Of a DNA stretch of 64,000 nucleotides, positions 163 through 25,216 are shown piece after piece (positions within the stretch are counted from its first letter, which is position 1; the number at the start of each line of letters is the position of its first letter). Below the pieces are notes generated by a model that saw nothing but the letters and a program-made list of their open reading frames with translations, did not search any database and had not been told where the DNA came from. The stretch lies in NCBI GenBank assembly GCA_028819295.1, contig JAPPMA010000053.1, positions 1-64,000 on the forward strand. Direction: 5' to 3'. The position numbers and the translations under genes were made by a program. Source of the stretch: a bacterium. GTDB lineage: Bacteria; Actinomycetota; Acidimicrobiia; Acidimicrobiales; Bin134.

Positions 163-1389
163 GTGAATCCAATCATGCCCAACCACCCCACTCGCGACGA
201 CATCAACTTCCTCGACGGCTTCTGGTACCAGCACGAACCCCACGACACCTGGAGATGGATGCGCGAGAACGCCCCCGTCTACTACGACCCGAACAGCGAC
301 ACATGGGGCATCACCCGCTACCACGACATCCTGGAAGTCGAAAAGGATCCCAAAACCTTCTCCTCGTGGCGCAGCCCCCGGCCCCATGGCGACCCGCTGC
401 CCATGATGATCTCCATGGACGACCCCTTGCACAAGCAGCGCCGCAAGCTTGTGAACCGGGGCTTCACTCCCAAGCAGGTACGGGACCGCACCGCAGAGGT
501 CGGCGCGATCTGCGACGAGATCCTCGACAGGGTGTGCGAGCGGGGGGAGTGCGATTTCGTATGGGACATAGCCGCTCCACTGCCGCTGATCCTCATCGGC
601 GACATGCTGGGATTCCCCCGAGAGCACTACGACGACCTGCTGGAGTGGTCGGACGACATGATCCGCGCCACCACCGATACCGACCCGGCGGCGGCTGAGA
701 AGGGGATGTTGGCCGGCATTGCCTTTCGGGAGTTCCAGCTTGGGGTGATCGCCGACCGCCGATCCCGGTCGCCCCAGAAAGATTTGGTAAGCGTGTTGTG
801 CCACGCCGAGGTGGACGGCGAGAAGCTCGACGACGAATCGCTGGTGCAGGAGACGCTTCTGATCCTCATCGGGGGCGACGAGACGACCCGCCATGTGATC
901 AGCGGGGGAATGTTGGCCCTCATCGAGCATCCCGATCAGCGGGCACTGTTCAACCAGCGGGCAGCCGACGACGTCTGGATGGAGCGGGCCGTGGAGGAAC
1001 TGCTGCGGTGGGTGACCCCCATCAAGAACATGTCCCGCAGCGCTACCCGCGACGTGGAGATGCACGGCGAGATCATCCGCGACGGCGATCAGGTCATATT
1101 GCTGTACCCGTCGGCCAACAGAGACGAGACGGTGTACGACGATCCCTACACTTTTGATTTGGAACGCGATCCAAACCACCACCTGGCCTTCGGCTGGGGC
1201 ACTCACTTCTGTCTGGGTTCGTCACTGGCTCGCCTGGAGCTCAAGATCATGTTCCAGAAGCTGGCTGAGCGCATGCCCGACATCCATCTGGCCAGCGATG
1301 AGCCACTCCCCTGGCGGGCGTCCAACTTCATCGTCGGCCCCGAGGGCATGCCGGTCGCCTTCACCCCCAGCGCCCCGGTGGGGGCTTGA
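163..1389 (+). CDS. Cytochrome P450, CYP142/CYP125-like
   Basis: A 408-aa soluble bacterial P450, a haem-thiolate monooxygenase. Visible landmarks are the I-helix oxygen-binding motif GGDETT (237-242), the K-helix ExxR pair (E279, R282) and the haem loop FGWGTHFCLG with Cys350 as the axial ligand. The stretch from the I-helix through PIKNMSR and NHHLAFG closely resembles what I know of CYP142, a sterol C26/27-hydroxylase of mycobacteria, so a steroid or branched-lipid substrate is likely but inferred. The start shown is GTG; an in-frame ATG at 175 would remove four residues. The stop overlaps the start of a lipoprotein cytochrome c, suggesting translational coupling. No dedicated ferredoxin or ferredoxin reductase gene lies beside it. 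Confidence 0.93.
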   Translation: MNPIMPNHPTRDDINFLDGFWYQHEPHDTWRWMRENAPVYYDPNSDTWGITRYHDILEVEKDPKTFSSWRSPRPHGDPLPMMISMDDPLHKQRRKLVNRGFTPKQVRDRTAEVGAICDEILDRVCERGECDFVWDIAAPLPLILIGDMLGFPREHYDDLLEWSDDMIRATTDTDPAAAEKGMLAGIAFREFQLGVIADRRSRSPQKDLVSVLCHAEVDGEKLDDESLVQETLLILIGGDETTRHVISGGMLALIEHPDQRALFNQRAADDVWMERAVEELLRWVTPIKNMSRSATRDVEMHGEIIRDGDQVILLYPSANRDETVYDDPYTFDLERDPNHHLAFGWGTHFCLGSSLARLELKIMFQKLAERMPDIHLASDEPLPWRASNFIVGPEGMPVAFTPSAPVGA

Positions 1390-1775
1390 CCCCATCCCGC
1401 TCCCGCAGGGAGGTCGCACTGGCAGTATTGCTGATTGGCTTCTTGGGCTTGGCGGTGGGTTGCAGCGGAAGGACAGACCCCGAAGGGCCGACTGTTTCGA
1501 CGGCTCCTCCGGCTACCGAGGAGGCAACCGCAGGTGAGATTGCGGCGGGCAAGAGTGTGTATTTGATGCGCTGTGTGGGGTGCCACGCGCTCGACGGCAG
1601 CGGCATCGTCGGCCCCGACATCCGCCCCGGCGAAGTCCTAGAAAAGTACGCCTCAGCCGAGGCTATGGCGGCTGTGGTGCGCGACGGCATCGGTGAGATG
1701 CCCGAGTTCGGCTCCAGGCTCAGGGATGAGGAAATAGTCGCCGTCGTCGCCTATGTAAGAGGCGGTTTAGGTTGA
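1386..1775 (+). CDS. Lipoprotein class I cytochrome c
   Basis: A 129-aa protein with an arginine-rich n-region, a hydrophobic core and a lipobox LAVGC (Cys about 26), so it should be lipid-anchored outside the membrane. A low-complexity Thr/Ala/Pro/Glu linker precedes a single haem site CVGCH (about 63-67). A Met within the segment GEMPEF is a plausible sixth haem ligand. The rest fits a minimal class I cytochrome c fold. The start is a TTG that overlaps the TGA of the upstream P450; no later start keeps the signal peptide. A P450 works in the cytoplasm and this protein outside, so the overlap more likely reflects operon packing than direct electron transfer. Confidence 0.85.
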   Translation: MTPSRSRREVALAVLLIGFLGLAVGCSGRTDPEGPTVSTAPPATEEATAGEIAAGKSVYLMRCVGCHALDGSGIVGPDIRPGEVLEKYASAEAMAAVVRDGIGEMPEFGSRLRDEEIVAVVAYVRGGLG

Positions 1776-1776
1776 C

Positions 1777-2391
1777 CTAGCCCGCCCAGGCGTCGACCAC
1801 GTCGGCGGTAGTGGTGACGGTGGCGACGATGCCGAGGGTGTGCTCGAAGACGGCGTCGACGTAGTCGGGCGGGGTGCCGGCCACCGCGTCGCGGGGGATC
1901 ACCACCACGTAGCCGGCGTTGACGGCGTCGAAGGTCAGGTTGATGATGGCCACGTTCACCGAAACGCCCACGGCCACGATGGTGCGGATGCCCTCGTTGC
2001 GCAGCAGCGAGTCGAGCTCGGTGCCCTCGAAAGGCGACAGGCCGTGGTGCCGGGGCAGCACGATATCGGCATCGGCCACCCCGATCTCGGGCACCACCTC
2101 CACCGCGGCCGTGCCGAGATGCAACTGCACCGGCATCTTGGGCATGGCCCGGAACAGGCGGGCGTTGCGATTGCCGCCCCACCCGTCGGCGCGGTGCTGG
2201 GCCGTGCAGTGGATCACCCGCACCCCAGCGGTGCGGGCTGCGGTCGCCAGCGCCGCCACGTTGGGGATCAGCCCCTCCTTGGCGGCCTCTGCCAGCGCGG
2301 GCAGGGCCGACAGCTCCCCGATCACCCCGTTTTGGCACTCCTGAAGCACCAACGCCGTGGTGGCCGGATCAATGATGTCGCCCAACTCCAT
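1777..2391 (-). CDS. Isochorismatase-fold protein, triad degenerate
   Basis: A 204-aa protein with the isochorismatase/cysteine-hydrolase fold: an N-terminal strand LVLQECQNG, a middle segment ending SPFEGTEL, and the glycine-rich turn AVGVSVNVAI. In active relatives these positions carry Asp (in the D-x-Q strand), Lys (before SAFxGT) and the nucleophilic Cys (GxxTxxC). Here they read Glu, probably His, and Ala. All three catalytic residues therefore appear substituted, so hydrolase activity of the usual type is doubtful. I believe similar QECQ/QEVQ proteins exist in other actinobacteria, so it may be a conserved noncanonical branch. It is convergent with the cytochrome gene, one base away. 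Confidence 0.8.
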   Translation of the reverse strand: MELGDIIDPATTALVLQECQNGVIGELSALPALAEAAKEGLIPNVAALATAARTAGVRVIHCTAQHRADGWGGNRNARLFRAMPKMPVQLHLGTAAVEVVPEIGVADADIVLPRHHGLSPFEGTELDSLLRNEGIRTIVAVGVSVNVAIINLTFDAVNAGYVVVIPRDAVAGTPPDYVDAVFEHTLGIVATVTTTADVVDAWAG

Positions 2392-2448
2392 GTGTGTTCA
2401 CTCTCCCATGCCGAGTTCTGTGGGACTGCCAGCCATAATGACCACCCT

Positions 2449-4734
2449 ATGGCCGGATCGATCTTGGGGACCGAAGTTGTGCGGAGGGAGGACGGGACCC
2501 TCCTGATCGGGGAGGGTCGGTTCACCGGGGATTTGCGGCCCGACGGGTTGCTGACGGCCTATTTCGTGCGGTCGCCGGTGGCCCACGCGGAAGTTGCAAG
2601 CGTTGATTGTGAGGGCGCGGCCAAGTGCCCCGGTGTTGTCGGCGTGTACACCGCCGAAACCATTGGGGTGGAGCAGGTGAAGCCCCGGTTTCCGCTTGAT
2701 CCCCACTTCGGGCGCGGGCCGTTGGCCAGCGATCGGGTCCGCTTCGTGGGCGAGCCGGTGGCCATGGTGGTGGCCGAGAGCCTGGCCGCAGCCCAAGACG
2801 CGGCCGACGAGATCATGGTCGACTATGAGCCGCTCCCGGTGTCGCTGGCCGCCGAGGCCGCGGTGGCCAATGGTGCAGCGGTGCTGTTTCCCGGACGGGG
2901 ATCGGACTCGATATTCAGGGTTTTCGATCCGGTGGATGGCCTGCACGACGGGGCTGACCGGATCATCACCGGCCGCATCGTCCACAACCGCATGGCGGTG
3001 GTGCCGATGGAAACCGACGCCGTGCTGGTTGATCCCACTGGAGAGCCGCTCACCTTGTGGGTGTCTACCCAAGGGGCCCACAACACCCGAGCCGGCATCG
3101 CCGAGTCGCTGGGTTTGGAGCCGGACGCCGTTCGGGTGATTGCCCCCTGCGTGGGGGGAGGTTTCGGGGCCAAGGGCGGGTGGCGGGTGGAGCATGTGGC
3201 GGTGGCTGCGGCTGCCCGGCAACTGGGCCGCCCCGTGGTGTGGACGGAGACCCGGGCCGAGAACCTCATCTCCATGCAGGCTCGCGACCAGGTGCATTAC
3301 GCCCGCCTGGGGGTGACCGACGATGGCCGCATGGTGTCGCTGGAGGTGGTGGTGCTGGTGGACGCCGGGGCCTATCCCGGTTTGGGCGGCATTCTCCCCG
3401 TCATCACCAGGGTGATGGCGACCGGCGTCTACGGCATCGAAAAGGTGCAGTTCGACTATGGCTTGGCCGCTACCAATAGGGCTCCTTTGGGGGCATTCCG
3501 AGGGGCAGGCCGACCCCAGGCCACCCTCACCATTGAGCGCATGGCCGACCTGGCCGCGGCCGAGCTGGGTAGCGACCCGGTGGAGTTCCGTCGTCGCAAC
3601 TTCTTGGCGCCCGAGGATTTCCCGCTGGTGACCCCCACCGGCGGGGCCTACGACACCGGCGAATACAACAAGGCGCTGGACCGAGCCTGCGAGCTGGTGG
3701 GCTACGAGGAGTTGCGGGCCGAGCAGTCCGCCCGCCGAGCCGCGGGCGACCCCCGAAGGCTGGGCATCGGGCTGTCGAGCTACGTGGAGGTGACCGCCCC
3801 CATCGGCCAGGAAGAGCACGCGGTGGTGGAAGTCCACCCCGACGGCTCGGCCACGGTGTCGGTGGGCACCTCCTCCCACGGCCAGGGCCATGAGACGGCG
3901 TTCACCATGATCGTGGCCGACCGGCTGGGCATCGACTTGGACAGGATCGCTTTTGTGCAGTCCGACACCGCGTTGGTGGCCCGGGGCAGCGGCACGGGCG
4001 GGTCGCGCAGCGCCCAGCTTGGGGGCAGCGCCATTCATGTTGCCTCCCTGGAAGTCCTGGAAATCGCCCGACAGCGCGCTGCGGAGCTGTTGGAGGCCAG
4101 CGCCGACGACATCGTGGTCACCGACGATGGTCGCCTGGGGGTGACCGGCGTGCCCTCGGCCACGGTCAGCTGGGAGGAGGTGGCGGCGATGTCGGAGGAG
4201 CCGCTGCGGGCCGAGCTCGACCACACCACCGACGGCCCCACCTTCCCGTTCGGCACCCACATCTGCGTGGTGGAGGTGGACACCGAGACCGGCATGGTGA
4301 CTCTGCGGCGCTTTGTGGCGGTGGACGACGCCGGAAACCTGCTCAATCCGCTGATCGTGGCCGGCCAGCAGCACGGCGGGGTGGCCTCGGGCATCGGCCA
4401 GGCGCTGTACGAGCACGTGGTATACGACGACCACGGCAACCCCCTCACCACCGGCCTGGCCGACTACGCCATGCCCTCGGCCGCCGAGTTCTGCGACTTC
4501 ACCGTGGCGAGCACCATCACCCCCACCCACCTCAACCCCCTAGGGGTGAAGGGCATCGGGGAGGCGGCCACCATCGGCGCCACCCCCGCGGTGCAGAACG
4601 CGGTGATCGACGCCCTGAGCGACCTCGGAATCCGTCACATCGACCTGCCGCTCACCCCCGAACGGGTGTGGCAGGCCATCCAGGCGGCGGGCCGCCCCGA
4701 ATCGGAGATCATCTGGCCGGACCTGTCCCGCTAG
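2449..4734 (+). CDS. Molybdenum hydroxylase large subunit (CoxL/XdhA family)
   Basis: A 761-aa protein of the xanthine dehydrogenase/aldehyde oxidase/CO dehydrogenase large-subunit family, which binds molybdopterin cytosine dinucleotide. N-terminal part: the aldehyde oxidase a/b hammerhead (VRRED, GRFTGD, FVRSPVAHA). The active-site loop reads GAFRGAGRPQA near residues 348-358; form II CoxL-like enzymes have AYRGAGR, while true CO dehydrogenase has AYxCSFR, so CO oxidation is unlikely. The C-terminus has the expected GVKGIGEAATIG segment, with Glu as the likely base. The open frame extends far upstream, but the ATG at 2449 is where family similarity begins. The FAD and 2Fe-2S subunits these enzymes normally need are not adjacent. 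Confidence 0.88.
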   Translation: MAGSILGTEVVRREDGTLLIGEGRFTGDLRPDGLLTAYFVRSPVAHAEVASVDCEGAAKCPGVVGVYTAETIGVEQVKPRFPLDPHFGRGPLASDRVRFVGEPVAMVVAESLAAAQDAADEIMVDYEPLPVSLAAEAAVANGAAVLFPGRGSDSIFRVFDPVDGLHDGADRIITGRIVHNRMAVVPMETDAVLVDPTGEPLTLWVSTQGAHNTRAGIAESLGLEPDAVRVIAPCVGGGFGAKGGWRVEHVAVAAAARQLGRPVVWTETRAENLISMQARDQVHYARLGVTDDGRMVSLEVVVLVDAGAYPGLGGILPVITRVMATGVYGIEKVQFDYGLAATNRAPLGAFRGAGRPQATLTIERMADLAAAELGSDPVEFRRRNFLAPEDFPLVTPTGGAYDTGEYNKALDRACELVGYEELRAEQSARRAAGDPRRLGIGLSSYVEVTAPIGQEEHAVVEVHPDGSATVSVGTSSHGQGHETAFTMIVADRLGIDLDRIAFVQSDTALVARGSGTGGSRSAQLGGSAIHVASLEVLEIARQRAAELLEASADDIVVTDDGRLGVTGVPSATVSWEEVAAMSEEPLRAELDHTTDGPTFPFGTHICVVEVDTETGMVTLRRFVAVDDAGNLLNPLIVAGQQHGGVASGIGQALYEHVVYDDHGNPLTTGLADYAMPSAAEFCDFTVASTITPTHLNPLGVKGIGEAATIGATPAVQNAVIDALSDLGIRHIDLPLTPERVWQAIQAAGRPESEIIWPDLSR

Positions 4735-10025: not shown

Positions 10026-10931
10026 CTACAGCCCCATGTCGTGGTGGTCGGGCACGTCGTAGCGGCCGATGGCCTCGGCTCGGCGGTGGAGGAGGGCGAC
10101 GGTGTCCTCGATGTTGCGGCCGATGATGAACCGGCGCTGCTCCACGCAGTCGACCACGAAGTTGCCGTGCTCCACCAGGTCGGCCACCTCGGGTTCCTCG
10201 CCCCGGACCTCGGTCATGACGTCCTTGAGCTCTTGGAAGGTCATGCTGCGCCGCCCGGTGGCTTCGCCCACCCGGGCGAAATGGGCGGGCCGGTTGCGCT
10301 GGGCGGTGAACAATCCGGTGTCCAGCATGCCCCCCGACGGGTAGAGCACCGAGGCCCGCAGGTCGCTGCCCTCCCGGATCAGGTTGGTGTGAAGGGCCTC
10401 GGTGAAGCAGCTAACCGCGGCCTTGGAGGCGGCGTACACCGAAGCGGTGGGCACGGGGGCAAACCCGCCGTCGCCCGATGAGGTGTTGATGATCTGGCCG
10501 GGTTCGCCGCCGGCCAGCATTCGGGGCACGAACTCGGTGGTGCCGATGGCCACGCCGAACACGTTCACGCTGAAGCACCACCGCCAGTCGTTGGGCTCCT
10601 GCTCCCAGGGCTTTCCGCCCCCGCCGGAGGTCACCCCGGCGTTGTTGAAGAGCAGGTTGCAGCGCCCGTGGGCGTCGTAGACATGGTCGGCGAGGGCGGC
10701 CACCGAAGCCTCGTCGGCCACATCGGTGGGCCAGCCCGACACCGGGCCCAGATCGGACAGCTCGGCCACGGTGGCCTCGGTTGTGTCGGCCTCGATGTCG
10801 GCGATCACCACGGTGGCGCCGCGCTGGAGGAGGGCGGTCACGATGCCCTTGCCGATGCCGCCAGCCCCGCCGGTGACCACCGCCACCATGCCGTTTACGT
10901 CGAGACGCTCAGTTGGGGTTTCGCTGCTCAT
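10026..10931 (-). CDS. Short-chain dehydrogenase/reductase
   Basis: A 301-aa classical SDR with cofactor motif TGGAGGIG near residues 20-27, structural NNAG, catalytic Ser in NTSSGDGG and the YxxxK pair in YAASK. Asp in VVIADIEAD after the second strand favours NAD(H) over NADP(H). About 50 extra C-terminal residues (EDTVALLHRRAEAIGRYD) extend past the usual core. The gene is convergent with the sulfite-oxidase-like gene, 7 nt away. The substrate is not predictable; the surroundings suggest an acyl-CoA, alcohol or steroid intermediate. Confidence 0.9.
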   Translation of the reverse strand: MSSETPTERLDVNGMVAVVTGGAGGIGKGIVTALLQRGATVVIADIEADTTEATVAELSDLGPVSGWPTDVADEASVAALADHVYDAHGRCNLLFNNAGVTSGGGGKPWEQEPNDWRWCFSVNVFGVAIGTTEFVPRMLAGGEPGQIINTSSGDGGFAPVPTASVYAASKAAVSCFTEALHTNLIREGSDLRASVLYPSGGMLDTGLFTAQRNRPAHFARVGEATGRRSMTFQELKDVMTEVRGEEPEVADLVEHGNFVVDCVEQRRFIIGRNIEDTVALLHRRAEAIGRYDVPDHHDMGL

Positions 10932-10994
10932 GGTGACTCCCGTGTTCGGCCGAACCGAAGTGGTCTAGCAGTTTTTTCGCTACTGGCCTAACGC

Positions 10995-21629: not shown

Positions 21630-21719
21630 GCCCGAGGACAACTGCGAGCCTCATTTTGGCAGCACACCGCGGATTCTCTGCGGATCGAATTGTCGCTAGT
21701 TGTGGGTAGTTTCGCCGTA

Positions 21720-23276
21720 ATGTTGACTGGTATCGAAACGGTCTGGGACGAATTGGAGGACATTCGACGAGCTGCTGTTGCTGAGGTCCATCCGGAGTGC
21801 CGCAAGGACCTTGGTCAGGTGCTCACACCCGTTCCTGTTGCCCGATTGCTAGCGGAGATGTTCTCCGATTGGCGTGGCGATGTGGAGTTGGTTGATGCGG
21901 GTGCAGGTGCAGGCACCCTCGGTGCGGTCGCTGCGCTCATTGCGCTTTCTCGTGGTGGGCGTCCGGCATCGATGCGCGTCCTAGCCTGGGAAGTGGATCC
22001 AGAGCTTGCCGTTAAGTCAAAGCATACACTCGCCGCCGTATCAGAGCGGTATGACGAAGAGGGCATTCCATTTGAGTTCGAAGTCCTAGATGAGGACTTT
22101 CTTCAGAGGGCCGCGCAGAAGTCTGCTGGGTTGTCGTCTCATGGGGCAACAGCCACTCATGCGATTCTCAACCCCCCCTACGCCAAGCTCTCATCGTCCT
22201 CCAACGAGCGAGCGTTGGCCGAACGGCTAGGAGCGCCGGTTCCGAACCTCTATGCCGCATTCATGCTTGCTGCTTCTGCTTTGCTCAAGGTTGGCGGTGA
22301 GATGGTTGCGATTACCCCGCGGAGTTTCTGTAACGGCCCCTATTTCAAGAGGTTCAGGAGGGCCTTGCTTGGCCAGAATGGGCTGTCTACGATCCGGATT
22401 TTCGAGAGCAGGATGTGTGCATTTGCAGATCAGGACGTGCTTCAGGAGAATGCCATCACTCACTTGGTAAGAGGTCGAGTACAGCCGGAGATGGTCCGAG
22501 TGCAGGTGGGAGATCCTGGTGGACCAGTGACCGAAAGAGCCGTCCCGTCGGAGGAGGTTGTATTCCTAGGAGATCGCGATGTCGTCATCCATGTCGCTGA
22601 ATCTGAGGGCGCAGCCAAGGCGGCATCTCTCATGCGCGAACTCCCCGCGACGCTTGAGACAATTGGGGTCGATGTGTCGACGGGTCCGGTGGTGGATTTT
22701 CGGGCGCGCCGGTGGTTGCAAGCCGAACACCGGCTTGGATCGGTCCCGTTGTTGTACCCGTCATCGGTGGACACCGACGGTGTCTTTTGGCCGAGCTCAG
22801 GCAACAAGCCAATCGCCATTGACGACCTGGAGGCGACTGCATCTCTATTGACGCCGCGTGGAAACTACGTACTCGTCAAGCGATTCAGCAGCAAGGAAGA
22901 ACGACGTCGGATTGTTGCCGGCCCCCTGTTGGCTGATGCGTTTCCGGAGTGTTCAAGATTCGGGATCGAGAATCATGTCAACTATCTGCATAGCCGGCGA
23001 CGACCTCTTGGTCGCCAGCTAGCAATCGGACTGGCTGCCTTCCTCAACCACGAGCTGGTTGATGTCTATTTCCGGTCGTTCAGCGGGCATACCCAGGTCA
23101 ACGCAACAGATCTACGCCGCTTCCGAATTCCTGACCGGGCCACTCTTGAGGAGTTCGGCTCTGCATCATGTCCTAACGAAGCCTGCGACGAGTGGATTCG
23201 CAGCTTTGCCGCAGCCATCGGCGTCAGCGGTATAGGGGAGGTTGACCGTGTTGGCCAAACCTCTGCCGCACGCTAG
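21720..23276 (+). CDS. DNA adenine-specific methyltransferase (type II RM-like)
   Basis: A 518-aa N6-adenine methylase. With the ATG start, LGQVLTP (31-37) is the motif X region, VDAGAGAGTLG (58-68) the AdoMet loop (motif I) and NPPY (151-154) the catalytic motif IV. The C-terminal half (VSTGPVVDFRARR, YVLVKRFSSKEERRRIV, FLNHELVDVYFRSFSGHTQVNATDLR) is the target-recognition type I associate with stand-alone type II methylases of the PaeR7I/Eco57I-like group. A TTG at 21690 is an alternative start. Codon use is less GC-rich than in neighbouring genes, suggesting transfer. The gene overlaps the convergent HhH nuclease-like gene by 53 bp. Confidence 0.9.
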   Translation: MLTGIETVWDELEDIRRAAVAEVHPECRKDLGQVLTPVPVARLLAEMFSDWRGDVELVDAGAGAGTLGAVAALIALSRGGRPASMRVLAWEVDPELAVKSKHTLAAVSERYDEEGIPFEFEVLDEDFLQRAAQKSAGLSSHGATATHAILNPPYAKLSSSSNERALAERLGAPVPNLYAAFMLAASALLKVGGEMVAITPRSFCNGPYFKRFRRALLGQNGLSTIRIFESRMCAFADQDVLQENAITHLVRGRVQPEMVRVQVGDPGGPVTERAVPSEEVVFLGDRDVVIHVAESEGAAKAASLMRELPATLETIGVDVSTGPVVDFRARRWLQAEHRLGSVPLLYPSSVDTDGVFWPSSGNKPIAIDDLEATASLLTPRGNYVLVKRFSSKEERRRIVAGPLLADAFPECSRFGIENHVNYLHSRRRPLGRQLAIGLAAFLNHELVDVYFRSFSGHTQVNATDLRRFRIPDRATLEEFGSASCPNEACDEWIRSFAAAIGVSGIGEVDRVGQTSAAR

Positions 23277-24258
23277 CCATTTCCCCAGATCGCCAGTGTT
23301 CCTCAAACTCTTCGAATGGCCTGAATCGATCGGTTGAGTAGTAAGCGGCGGTCTTGGTTTCGCGAGGCCGAGTACGGCTGGTCTGGTAGCTCTCGCTGAA
23401 GCTGAACGGATCAATCCACCAAAGCCCGACTGCCTCGAATCGAGTCGTGGGTGGCTCGGCTCGGTCGATGACTTGGGCGTGGAAGAGATAGACGACAATT
23501 CCATCGGAGGTCGCAACTTCGCTGATGTCGTCGCAGTCGCCATGGTCGAGTTGGAATGTAGCCATCTTGGCCCCAACGGGAGCCCATCCTCCGAGATGAC
23601 TGCGACCTGTCTTGAGTTCGATGCCGGCGATAGGAGTGCCCTCTTCGTGGATCATAAAGTCGATGGAAGGTGTCTTTTGCTCCAAAATCTGCGCGTCATG
23701 CGCTCTCAGAACAGGCTGATCTAGCTGTTCTAACTCGAGGAGCGATTGTCGGAAGGCCTCCTCGAACCGAGTTGCCACGTACATCTCCGCGGCGATGCTT
23801 CGCCCTATCGACCGCGCGACCCGCTCGCAGTTTCCGCATAGAAGCCATTGGGCGAGATGGAGATCGCTGGCGACCTGAGTGCAGTTCTGGCAACTGCCCG
23901 ACAAAACCGTTGCATCGAACACCGGCGGCTCCCCTCGAAAGGCGCCAACCGTCCATTCAGCCACACACGCCTCGCAAAGATGAAACGAGCAAAGCCGCAC
24001 GTCCCACGCCGCCCGCCCCTCACGAACGCATTCGTAGGGAGAAAGGGGATCATCAGTGAGCGCCAGCCCAACTTCCCCGAGGGCCTCTTCGATCCTGTCA
24101 AGGCTCTTGTCACCGACTCCCGGTATCGAATCCAGCTCACGCCGATTCCACGATGCTAGCTTTTCAACGGTTTTGATCCCCGCCTCCACAAGCCGCTCCG
24201 CTAGCGCTTTTCCAAGCCCAAGGTCATGTAGAACTGCCAAGGTCTCATCGTGGCACAA
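23224..24258 (-). CDS. HhH + Cys-rich + PD-(D/E)XK-like protein, candidate restriction endonuclease
   Basis: A 344-aa protein I cannot assign to a named family. Residues 10-62 form two helix-hairpin-helix units (LGLGKALAERLVEAGI; LDSIPGVGDKSLDRIEEAL), a sequence-independent DNA-binding fold. Residues 90-144 hold seven cysteines (C90, C95, C98, C123, C126, C141, C144) in CxxC-type pairs, probably zinc ribbons. Residues 199-216 read IDFMIHEEGTPIAGIELK, which fits the D...ExK core of PD-(D/E)XK nucleases (D200, E214, K216). It starts with TTG, immediately after an in-frame stop. It is convergent with and overlaps the methylase gene; both have lower GC than the flanks. Cognate nuclease function is inferred from context. 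Confidence 0.75.
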   Translation of the reverse strand: MCHDETLAVLHDLGLGKALAERLVEAGIKTVEKLASWNRRELDSIPGVGDKSLDRIEEALGEVGLALTDDPLSPYECVREGRAAWDVRLCSFHLCEACVAEWTVGAFRGEPPVFDATVLSGSCQNCTQVASDLHLAQWLLCGNCERVARSIGRSIAAEMYVATRFEEAFRQSLLELEQLDQPVLRAHDAQILEQKTPSIDFMIHEEGTPIAGIELKTGRSHLGGWAPVGAKMATFQLDHGDCDDISEVATSDGIVVYLFHAQVIDRAEPPTTRFEAVGLWWIDPFSFSESYQTSRTRPRETKTAAYYSTDRFRPFEEFEEHWRSGEMASVRQRFGQHGQPPLYR

Positions 24259-24274
24259 CTAGCATTAGTCGGCG

Positions 24275-25216
24275 ATGGCGAAGAGGAAGAGGGCTCGGAC
24301 GGCTTTGTTGGAGCGGGTGCCGGTGTCTGACCCGCCGGTGAGGCCGGGGCTCATCGGACCCCGGCGTCGGGTTCCCCGCCACATTGAGCGTCCTCCCTAT
24401 GCCCGCACGGGGGAGCCGGGGCCCGCGGTGTCGCCCATGGTGCGCAGCTCCGCAGAGATCGAGGCGATGCGCCGGGCGGGTCAGATGGCCGCGGAGGTGC
24501 TGCTCTTCGCTGGAGAATTGGTGGCCCCTGGGGTGACCACCGACAGCATCGACGCCCAAGTTCACGAGGAGATCTTGCGCCGGGGGGCCTATCCCAGCCC
24601 GCTCAACTATCGGGGCTATCCCAAGTCGGTGTGTACGTCGATCAACGAGGTCATCTGCCACGGCATCCCCGACAGCCGGGCGCTGGCCGACGGCGACATC
24701 GTCAACATCGACGTCACCGTTTACCTCGACGGGGTTCACGGCGACACGTCGGTCACGTTCGAGGTGGGGGACGTGGAAGACCACTCCCGGCTGCTGGTGC
24801 GAGAAACCCGGACCGCTATGTATTTGGGCATCGGCGCGGTGCGGGCCGGCGCGCCGGTCAGCGCCATCGGAAAGGCCATCGAGTCCCACGCCCGACTCCA
24901 CCGGCTGGGGGTGGTGCGGGAGTTCATCGGCCACGGGGTGGGCACCGAGTTCCATTCCGGGCTGCAAATCCCCCACTACTACGACCGCTCCCATTCCACG
25001 CCGCTGGAAACCGGCATGACCTTCACCATCGAGCCCATGCTCACGCTGGGTTCCCCCGACCTGTACCTGTGGGACGACCAGTGGACCGCGGTTACCGCCG
25101 ACCAGCGCCGCAGCGCCCAGTTCGAGCACACGCTGCTGTGTACACACCACGGCGCCGAGATCCTCACCCGCACCCCCGCTGGGGAGGGTGCCGCCGAGGT
25201 GTACGCCAACGACTGA
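24275..25216 (+). CDS. map: Methionine aminopeptidase, type I
   Basis: A 313-aa pita-bread metallopeptidase removing N-terminal Met from new proteins. Residues 1-50 form a basic, proline-rich extension (LIGPRRRVPRHIERPPY) like the ribosome- or SH3-linked extension of actinobacterial type Ic enzymes. Metal ligands: Asp in NIDVTVYLDG and GDTSVTF, His in FIGHGVGTEFH, Glu in TIEPML and the final QFEHTLL. The substrate His lies in VICHGIPD. The gene begins only 16 nt from the divergent HhH nuclease gene, so its promoter must overlap the beginning of that gene. Confidence 0.96.
   Translation: MAKRKRARTALLERVPVSDPPVRPGLIGPRRRVPRHIERPPYARTGEPGPAVSPMVRSSAEIEAMRRAGQMAAEVLLFAGELVAPGVTTDSIDAQVHEEILRRGAYPSPLNYRGYPKSVCTSINEVICHGIPDSRALADGDIVNIDVTVYLDGVHGDTSVTFEVGDVEDHSRLLVRETRTAMYLGIGAVRAGAPVSAIGKAIESHARLHRLGVVREFIGHGVGTEFHSGLQIPHYYDRSHSTPLETGMTFTIEPMLTLGSPDLYLWDDQWTAVTADQRRSAQFEHTLLCTHHGAEILTRTPAGEGAAEVYAND

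Follow-up and report, generated by a model that had tools for sequence, protein, structure and literature searches.

A PstI/BsuBI-type methylase paired with a candidate endonuclease of a new family in Acidimicrobiales

The window analysed here, a stretch of 64,000 nucleotides from a 3.56-Mb Acidimicrobiales genome, carries two convergent genes that very probably form a type II restriction-modification (R-M) system, likely specific for CTGCAG, in which an endonuclease of a new family replaces the PstI one. A sequence-only reading of the window had proposed a new R-M pair, and this is supported by the constant linkage of the two genes and by a nuclease without detectable similarity to BsuBI/PstI endonucleases. 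Beyond that reading, the methylase is of PstI type, the usual endonuclease appears to have been replaced, and CTGCAG is deeply depleted across the genus. In its fuller form, to which we lean with less assurance, a new type II family built of a helix-hairpin-helix (HhH) domain, two Cys4 modules and a PD-(D/E)XK-like centre took the place of the PstI endonuclease next to a methylase of PstI type, perhaps on two occasions. It would act at CTGCAG as a non-homologous isoschizomer or neoschizomer and have influenced how often the site occurs throughout an actinobacterial genus.

Under the proposed mechanism, the PstI/BsuBI-family methylase most likely modifies the adenine of CTGCAG, judging by its family and by the site depletion, and the convergent 344-aa protein would be the endonuclease, probably cutting unmethylated CTGCAG. 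Its N-terminal HhH domain and two Cys4 zinc modules are expected to bind DNA, and a PD-(D/E)XK-type centre at D200, E214 and K216 would cut with Mg2+. Within the patchily lost or exchanged island the nuclease decays ahead of the methylase. Features are listed in Table 1.

Table 1. Features of the methylase-nuclease locus, in window coordinates.
Feature	Position	Strand	Basis or remark
Island	21630..24274		Flanked by the stop codon of a MaoC-like gene (21629) and the start of map (24275)
TANNNT -10-like element	21707..21712	+	7 nt before methylase ATG
N6-adenine DNA methyltransferase, PstI/BsuBI type, 518 aa	21720..23276	+	PADLOC, Pfam, homology
Methylase motif I region LVDAGAGAGTLG	21888..21923	+	L57, D59, G61, G63, G65 and L67 invariant in 11 methylases
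Catalytic motif IV NPPY, methylase residues 151-154	22170..22181	+	Invariant in 11 methylases
53-bp tail-to-tail gene overlap	23224..23276		From ORF coordinates; L032 has the same overlap
Candidate restriction endonuclease, 344 aa	23224..24258	-	ORF; homologues only beside the same methylase type
Candidate PD-(D/E)XK catalytic domain, residues 146-305	23344..23823	-	Invariant residues, low-confidence predicted core order
Active-site candidate D200 to E214-x-K216	23611..23661	-	Invariant in A4, A5, A7
Eight-cysteine segment, nuclease residues 77-144	23827..24030	-	Conserved in every homologue covering the segment
Helix-hairpin-helix domain, nuclease residues 10-65	24064..24231	-	Pfam HHH_5; PDB profile matches

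The methylase and its convergent partner

Both reading frames lie where the sequence-only reading had placed them, overlapping tail to tail by 53 bp. The assignment of the first as a type II-like adenine methylase was borne out, with residues 10-488 matching the PADLOC MTase_II profile PDLC03227 (E 2e-133) and Pfam Eco57I matching over the NPPY region (E 1.4e-7). Full-length homology, motif I, NPPY and the C-terminal region all place it in the PstI/BsuBI methyltransferase family (Eco57I-type N6A MTase), and motif I, NPPY and a C-terminal GHTQVNATDLR block are common to it and PstI-type methylases. Its best plasmid relatives were 37-40% identical over ~88-97% of its length, and in the plasmid loci read in detail the neighbour of the methylase was annotated as a BsuBI/PstI family type II restriction endonuclease. 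Likewise, the nearest methylases of the same phylum outside the system (46, 40 and 37% identical) were each followed immediately, on their own strand, by a gene for a BsuBI/PstI endonuclease (E 1e-106 to 1e-114). The locus resembles PstI/BsuBI R-M systems, which act on CTGCAG, in having a methylase of the same family (~40% identical over nearly its full length), a partner gene adjoining it and CTGCAG depletion in the host genus, but differs in that the endonuclease has no detectable relation to PF06616 or PF17728. Gene order also differs, being tandem in most PstI/BsuBI relatives read, with one Vibrio plasmid divergent.

Analysis of the partner with Pfam HHH_5 gave a match at E 7.5e-11 (42.8 bits against a cut-off of 27), which places its N-terminus among HhH domains, and PDB profiles matched this part to the RNA polymerase alpha CTD. 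The HhH domain had been recognised from the letters, but the accompanying count of seven cysteines was not upheld; the protein has ten, of which eight are conserved (C77, C90, C95, C98, C123, C126, C141 and C144) and likely make up two Cys4 sites that would bind zinc. D200, E214 and K216, which had been numbered correctly, were invariant in 8/8 aligned homologues, down to 46-47% identity. Q236 and an SRTRPRETK block were also invariant, and a FQLDxxDCDDI block was conserved in the homologues. A D..ExK pattern alone is common by chance, and what raises this one above chance is its conservation, together with dN/dS of 0.08-0.12 and the occurrence of the gene only beside the methylase.

Outside the HhH domain no family in Pfam, NCBIfam, PADLOC, PHROGs or PDB covered the nuclease above threshold, in keeping with the earlier remark that it was not recognised as a known restriction family, and when the protein without the HhH part was run as a profile, nothing in PDB matched up to E 10. 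Searches of viral contigs, phages and plasmids turned up no relative of the nuclease domain. All other matches within the phylum covered HhH segments only, and a Natronococcus plasmid match was set aside for the same reason. Among HhH-containing nucleases and repair proteins, the haloarchaeal HhH/RNase H-like protein NATOC_RS20440 aligned over the HhH segment (29% over 141 residues), but the cysteines and catalytic domain of the nuclease are not common to both.

AlphaFold modelling of the full nuclease from an eight-sequence alignment reached a pLDDT of 43, with the HhH domain the only part confidently modelled, and residues 137-344 modelled separately gave a low-confidence pLDDT of ~36-37; too few diverse homologues are probably the cause. 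The low-confidence model of residues 137-344 has D200/E214/K216 within a set of three to four strands, preceded by one helix and followed by another and by further strands, an order that fits, without proving, a PD-(D/E)XK core. The nuclease resembles PD-(D/E)XK type II endonucleases in its invariant D200 and E214-x-K216 and in a predicted alpha-beta-beta-beta-alpha-beta order, but no solved member was matched by sequence or by the low-confidence model. Foldseek and VIA-align matches of this poor model were to unrelated folds only and were not interpreted. Sub-threshold matches of residues 146-205 to DUF234 (E 0.03-0.11), which we take to be PD-(D/E)XK-like, may point very weakly in the same direction.

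Distribution, linkage and decay of the pair

Homologues of the nuclease were found in nine genomes, all Acidimicrobiales, namely G000 (the window genome), G680 (L039), G992 (L040), G539 (L041), G1021 (L042), G935 (L043), G882, G972 (L044) and G696 (L045), and in a sample of 397 genomes from the whole order eight carried the gene. Seven carriers belong to the genus of the window genome, and G696 and G972 to other families. The L044 contig (QEUP01000022.1) is publicly labelled as an Acidobacteria bacterium; Acidobacteria was rejected as its host as the same contig is that of G972, and the label looks wrong. Whether homologues always neighbour the same methylase had been set beforehand as a check on the proposed pair, and in 9/9 genomes a methylase of the same type was adjacent and convergent, with none lacking it. 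An adjacent, co-inherited methylase and separate nuclease, as in type II R-M systems, is therefore present in every carrier. Between the two carrier groups the nucleases were 46-47% and the methylases 41-44% identical, so the two genes must have been paired for a long time. Methylase trees placed both nuclease-paired groups among methylases partnered with a PstI endonuclease, and an AU test of whether the two groups form one clade gave p 0.051.

Within the genus the methylase was intact in 7/7 carriers, the G539 copy stopping a dozen residues early, and the nuclease was broken in three of these seven, by a frameshift in the HhH part (G539), a 3' truncation after residue 308 (G1021) and an internal deletion of residues 120-212 (G882). 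Purifying selection on the intact nuclease copies is strong (dN/dS ~0.1; pairwise range 0.08-0.12). When an R-M system is lost, a methylase going first would expose the chromosome, so that restriction-modification demands loss of the nuclease first, and the asymmetry seen here, with the nuclease decaying before the methylase, is that pattern.

CTGCAG depletion and alternative readings

Site expectations were maximal-order Markov estimates, and for the window genome a 165-kb sample was used (the window plus L205-L211). In this sample CTGCAG was observed once against 47 expected, and the whole window genome held 70 CTGCAG against 891 of the reversed GACGTC. Likewise, observed and expected counts were 15 and 181 in G680, and 22 and 184 in the non-carrier G895, giving ratios of 0.02-0.12 for these three members of the genus, in each of which CTGCAG was the most depleted testable six-base palindrome. 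Three other genomes of the order, examined as controls, were near normal at 0.74-0.83. CTGCAC, CTGCAT and CTGCAA showed no depletion, which indicates that the effect falls on the palindrome CTGCAG, and it was to this exact palindrome that the genus-wide depletion was restricted. By whole-genome counts, CTGCAG/CAGCTG was below 0.30 in 21 of 22 genus members, with a value of 0.73 in the basal non-carrier G600 and 0.15 in the basal carrier G539. Carriers and non-carriers in the genus did not differ significantly (Mann-Whitney p 0.37 for CTGCAG/CAGCTG and 0.08 per Mb), which makes the depletion a trait of the genus (lineage), and as such it may stem from another or a lost system. The other-family carriers G696 and G972 gave 0.66-0.74, and did not clearly avoid the site, as would be expected if they acquired the pair recently or if its site is another one. 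Site avoidance is known to track long-lived orthodox type II systems and to outlast R-M loss in relatives (PMC4687349).

The window genome was also depleted in GTGCAC (1 against 34.3 expected) and ATGCAT (2 against 10.6 expected), both much more weakly depleted in G680 and G895, which suggests a second restriction system in the window genome. RE_ApaLI, searched for as the source of the GTGCAC depletion, gave no match, and the control likewise matched nowhere.

Given that most non-carriers are depleted as strongly as carriers, that other-family carriers show little CTGCAG depletion and that GTGCAC and ATGCAT are depleted as well, the pair could be a type II system whose site has drifted away from CTGCAG, with the genus-wide depletion left by a different, lost or undetected system. 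We consider this unlikely, as the methylase aligns with PstI-type methylases nearly end to end, GHTQVNATDLR block included, and no second methylase of the PstI/BsuBI family was seen in the genus genomes, all 22 of which also lack a BsuBI/PstI endonuclease. Furthermore, the exact CTGCAG palindrome alone is depleted genus-wide, the basal non-carrier G600 is undepleted while the basal carrier G539 is depleted, and avoidance persisting as the trace of a lost R-M system is documented in relatives (PMC4687349).

The nuclease might instead be an extremely diverged BsuBI/PstI endonuclease and no new family, which we rate as slightly less likely still. Its methylase partner is identical in type, an invariant D is followed 13-15 residues on by an invariant E in both, and its shallow profile (Neff 1.6) could let remote homology escape. 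Even so, the BsuBI/PstI family profiles (PF06616 and PF17728) gave no Pfam match to E 10, hhalign against nine BsuBI/PstI endonucleases returned a probability of 0.1%, and gene orientation is unlike; the architectures also differ, with an HTH domain (PF17728) and E-x-V in the BsuBI/PstI endonuclease against HhH, eight cysteines and ELK here. As the two nucleases are not detectably related, an endonuclease swap is the reading we prefer. We judge it very improbable that the methylase is effectively solitary and its neighbour not a sequence-specific restriction enzyme but an accessory nuclease for DNA binding or repair, since the nuclease is never found away from the methylase, is strongly conserved when intact and occupies the place where relatives keep a real endonuclease, and a methylase by itself would not select against CTGCAG. 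What would fit such a role is the retention of the methylase beside a broken nuclease in 3/7 genus carriers, the lack of a match to any restriction-enzyme family, and the resemblance of the HhH domain to the RNA polymerase alpha CTD and to repair proteins, HhH proteins being common in DNA repair.

Restriction endonucleases are usually dissimilar in sequence, and to our knowledge replacement of an endonuclease while its methylase stays has rarely been caught. Here a single methylase family occurs with either of two nucleases lacking detectable sequence similarity; unoccupied sites and degenerating copies are found alongside, and genomes are strongly depleted in the site expected for the pair. 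The proposed swap is thereby directly testable with two cloned genes and one predicted site. If it is borne out, endonucleases would gain an architecture, HhH with zinc modules, that lies outside the family libraries searched. Type II endonucleases have little sequence in common (PMC4081073), so new endonuclease families are not rare, and the pair is a good variant and not a new kind of system.

The island and its empty site

The genus of the window genome is partly sponge-associated, and 'Candidatus Poriferisocius anaerobius' is one of its MAGs. Within it the 2.5-kb island always occupies a single location, with a MaoC-like gene on one side and map on the other. The lower GC and the position next to map described earlier were both confirmed, with GC of 0.55-0.60 in the island against 0.65-0.72 in the flanks and the MaoC-like gene on the other side. 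Most non-carrier species have a clean ~38-bp empty site from the MaoC-like stop to the map start, in which TAGAGTTAG is conserved ahead of the map ATG, and carriers retain this sequence at the right-hand edge of the island. Among genus carriers the MaoC-like gene precedes the pair in every assembly that is clear on that side, and map comes after it as far as contigs extend. Carriers were scattered on a four-gene tree of the genus (five changes), a distribution compatible with repeated loss or with exchange of alleles via the flanks; in the genus the island is a presence/absence locus, patchily lost or exchanged.

The TANNNT element is a candidate promoter of the methylase, with TAGTTT, TAATTT or TAGCTT at the equivalent place in carriers. 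Window 21668-21712 comprises a short inverted repeat, CCGCGGATTCTCTGCGG, followed by this box, and the arms of the repeat vary between carriers yet still pair in some, with modest fold support (z -2.0, -3.4, -1.4 and -0.1). On the other side, the nuclease gene and map diverge from an interval of just 16 bp (window 24258-24275), so that their promoters probably overlap the opposite gene. In G680 (L224, ~1000-3500) a transposase-like ORF and small genes, read by eye, apparently lie between the nuclease and map, which indicates that this spot accepts other insertions too. In G992 (L225, ~10850-10960) a junction just past the nuclease start fuses the first ~58 bp of map with ~55 bp from the end of the MaoC-like gene; it lies ~10 kb from the intact map and probably records a tandem duplication that took in the island and its flanks.
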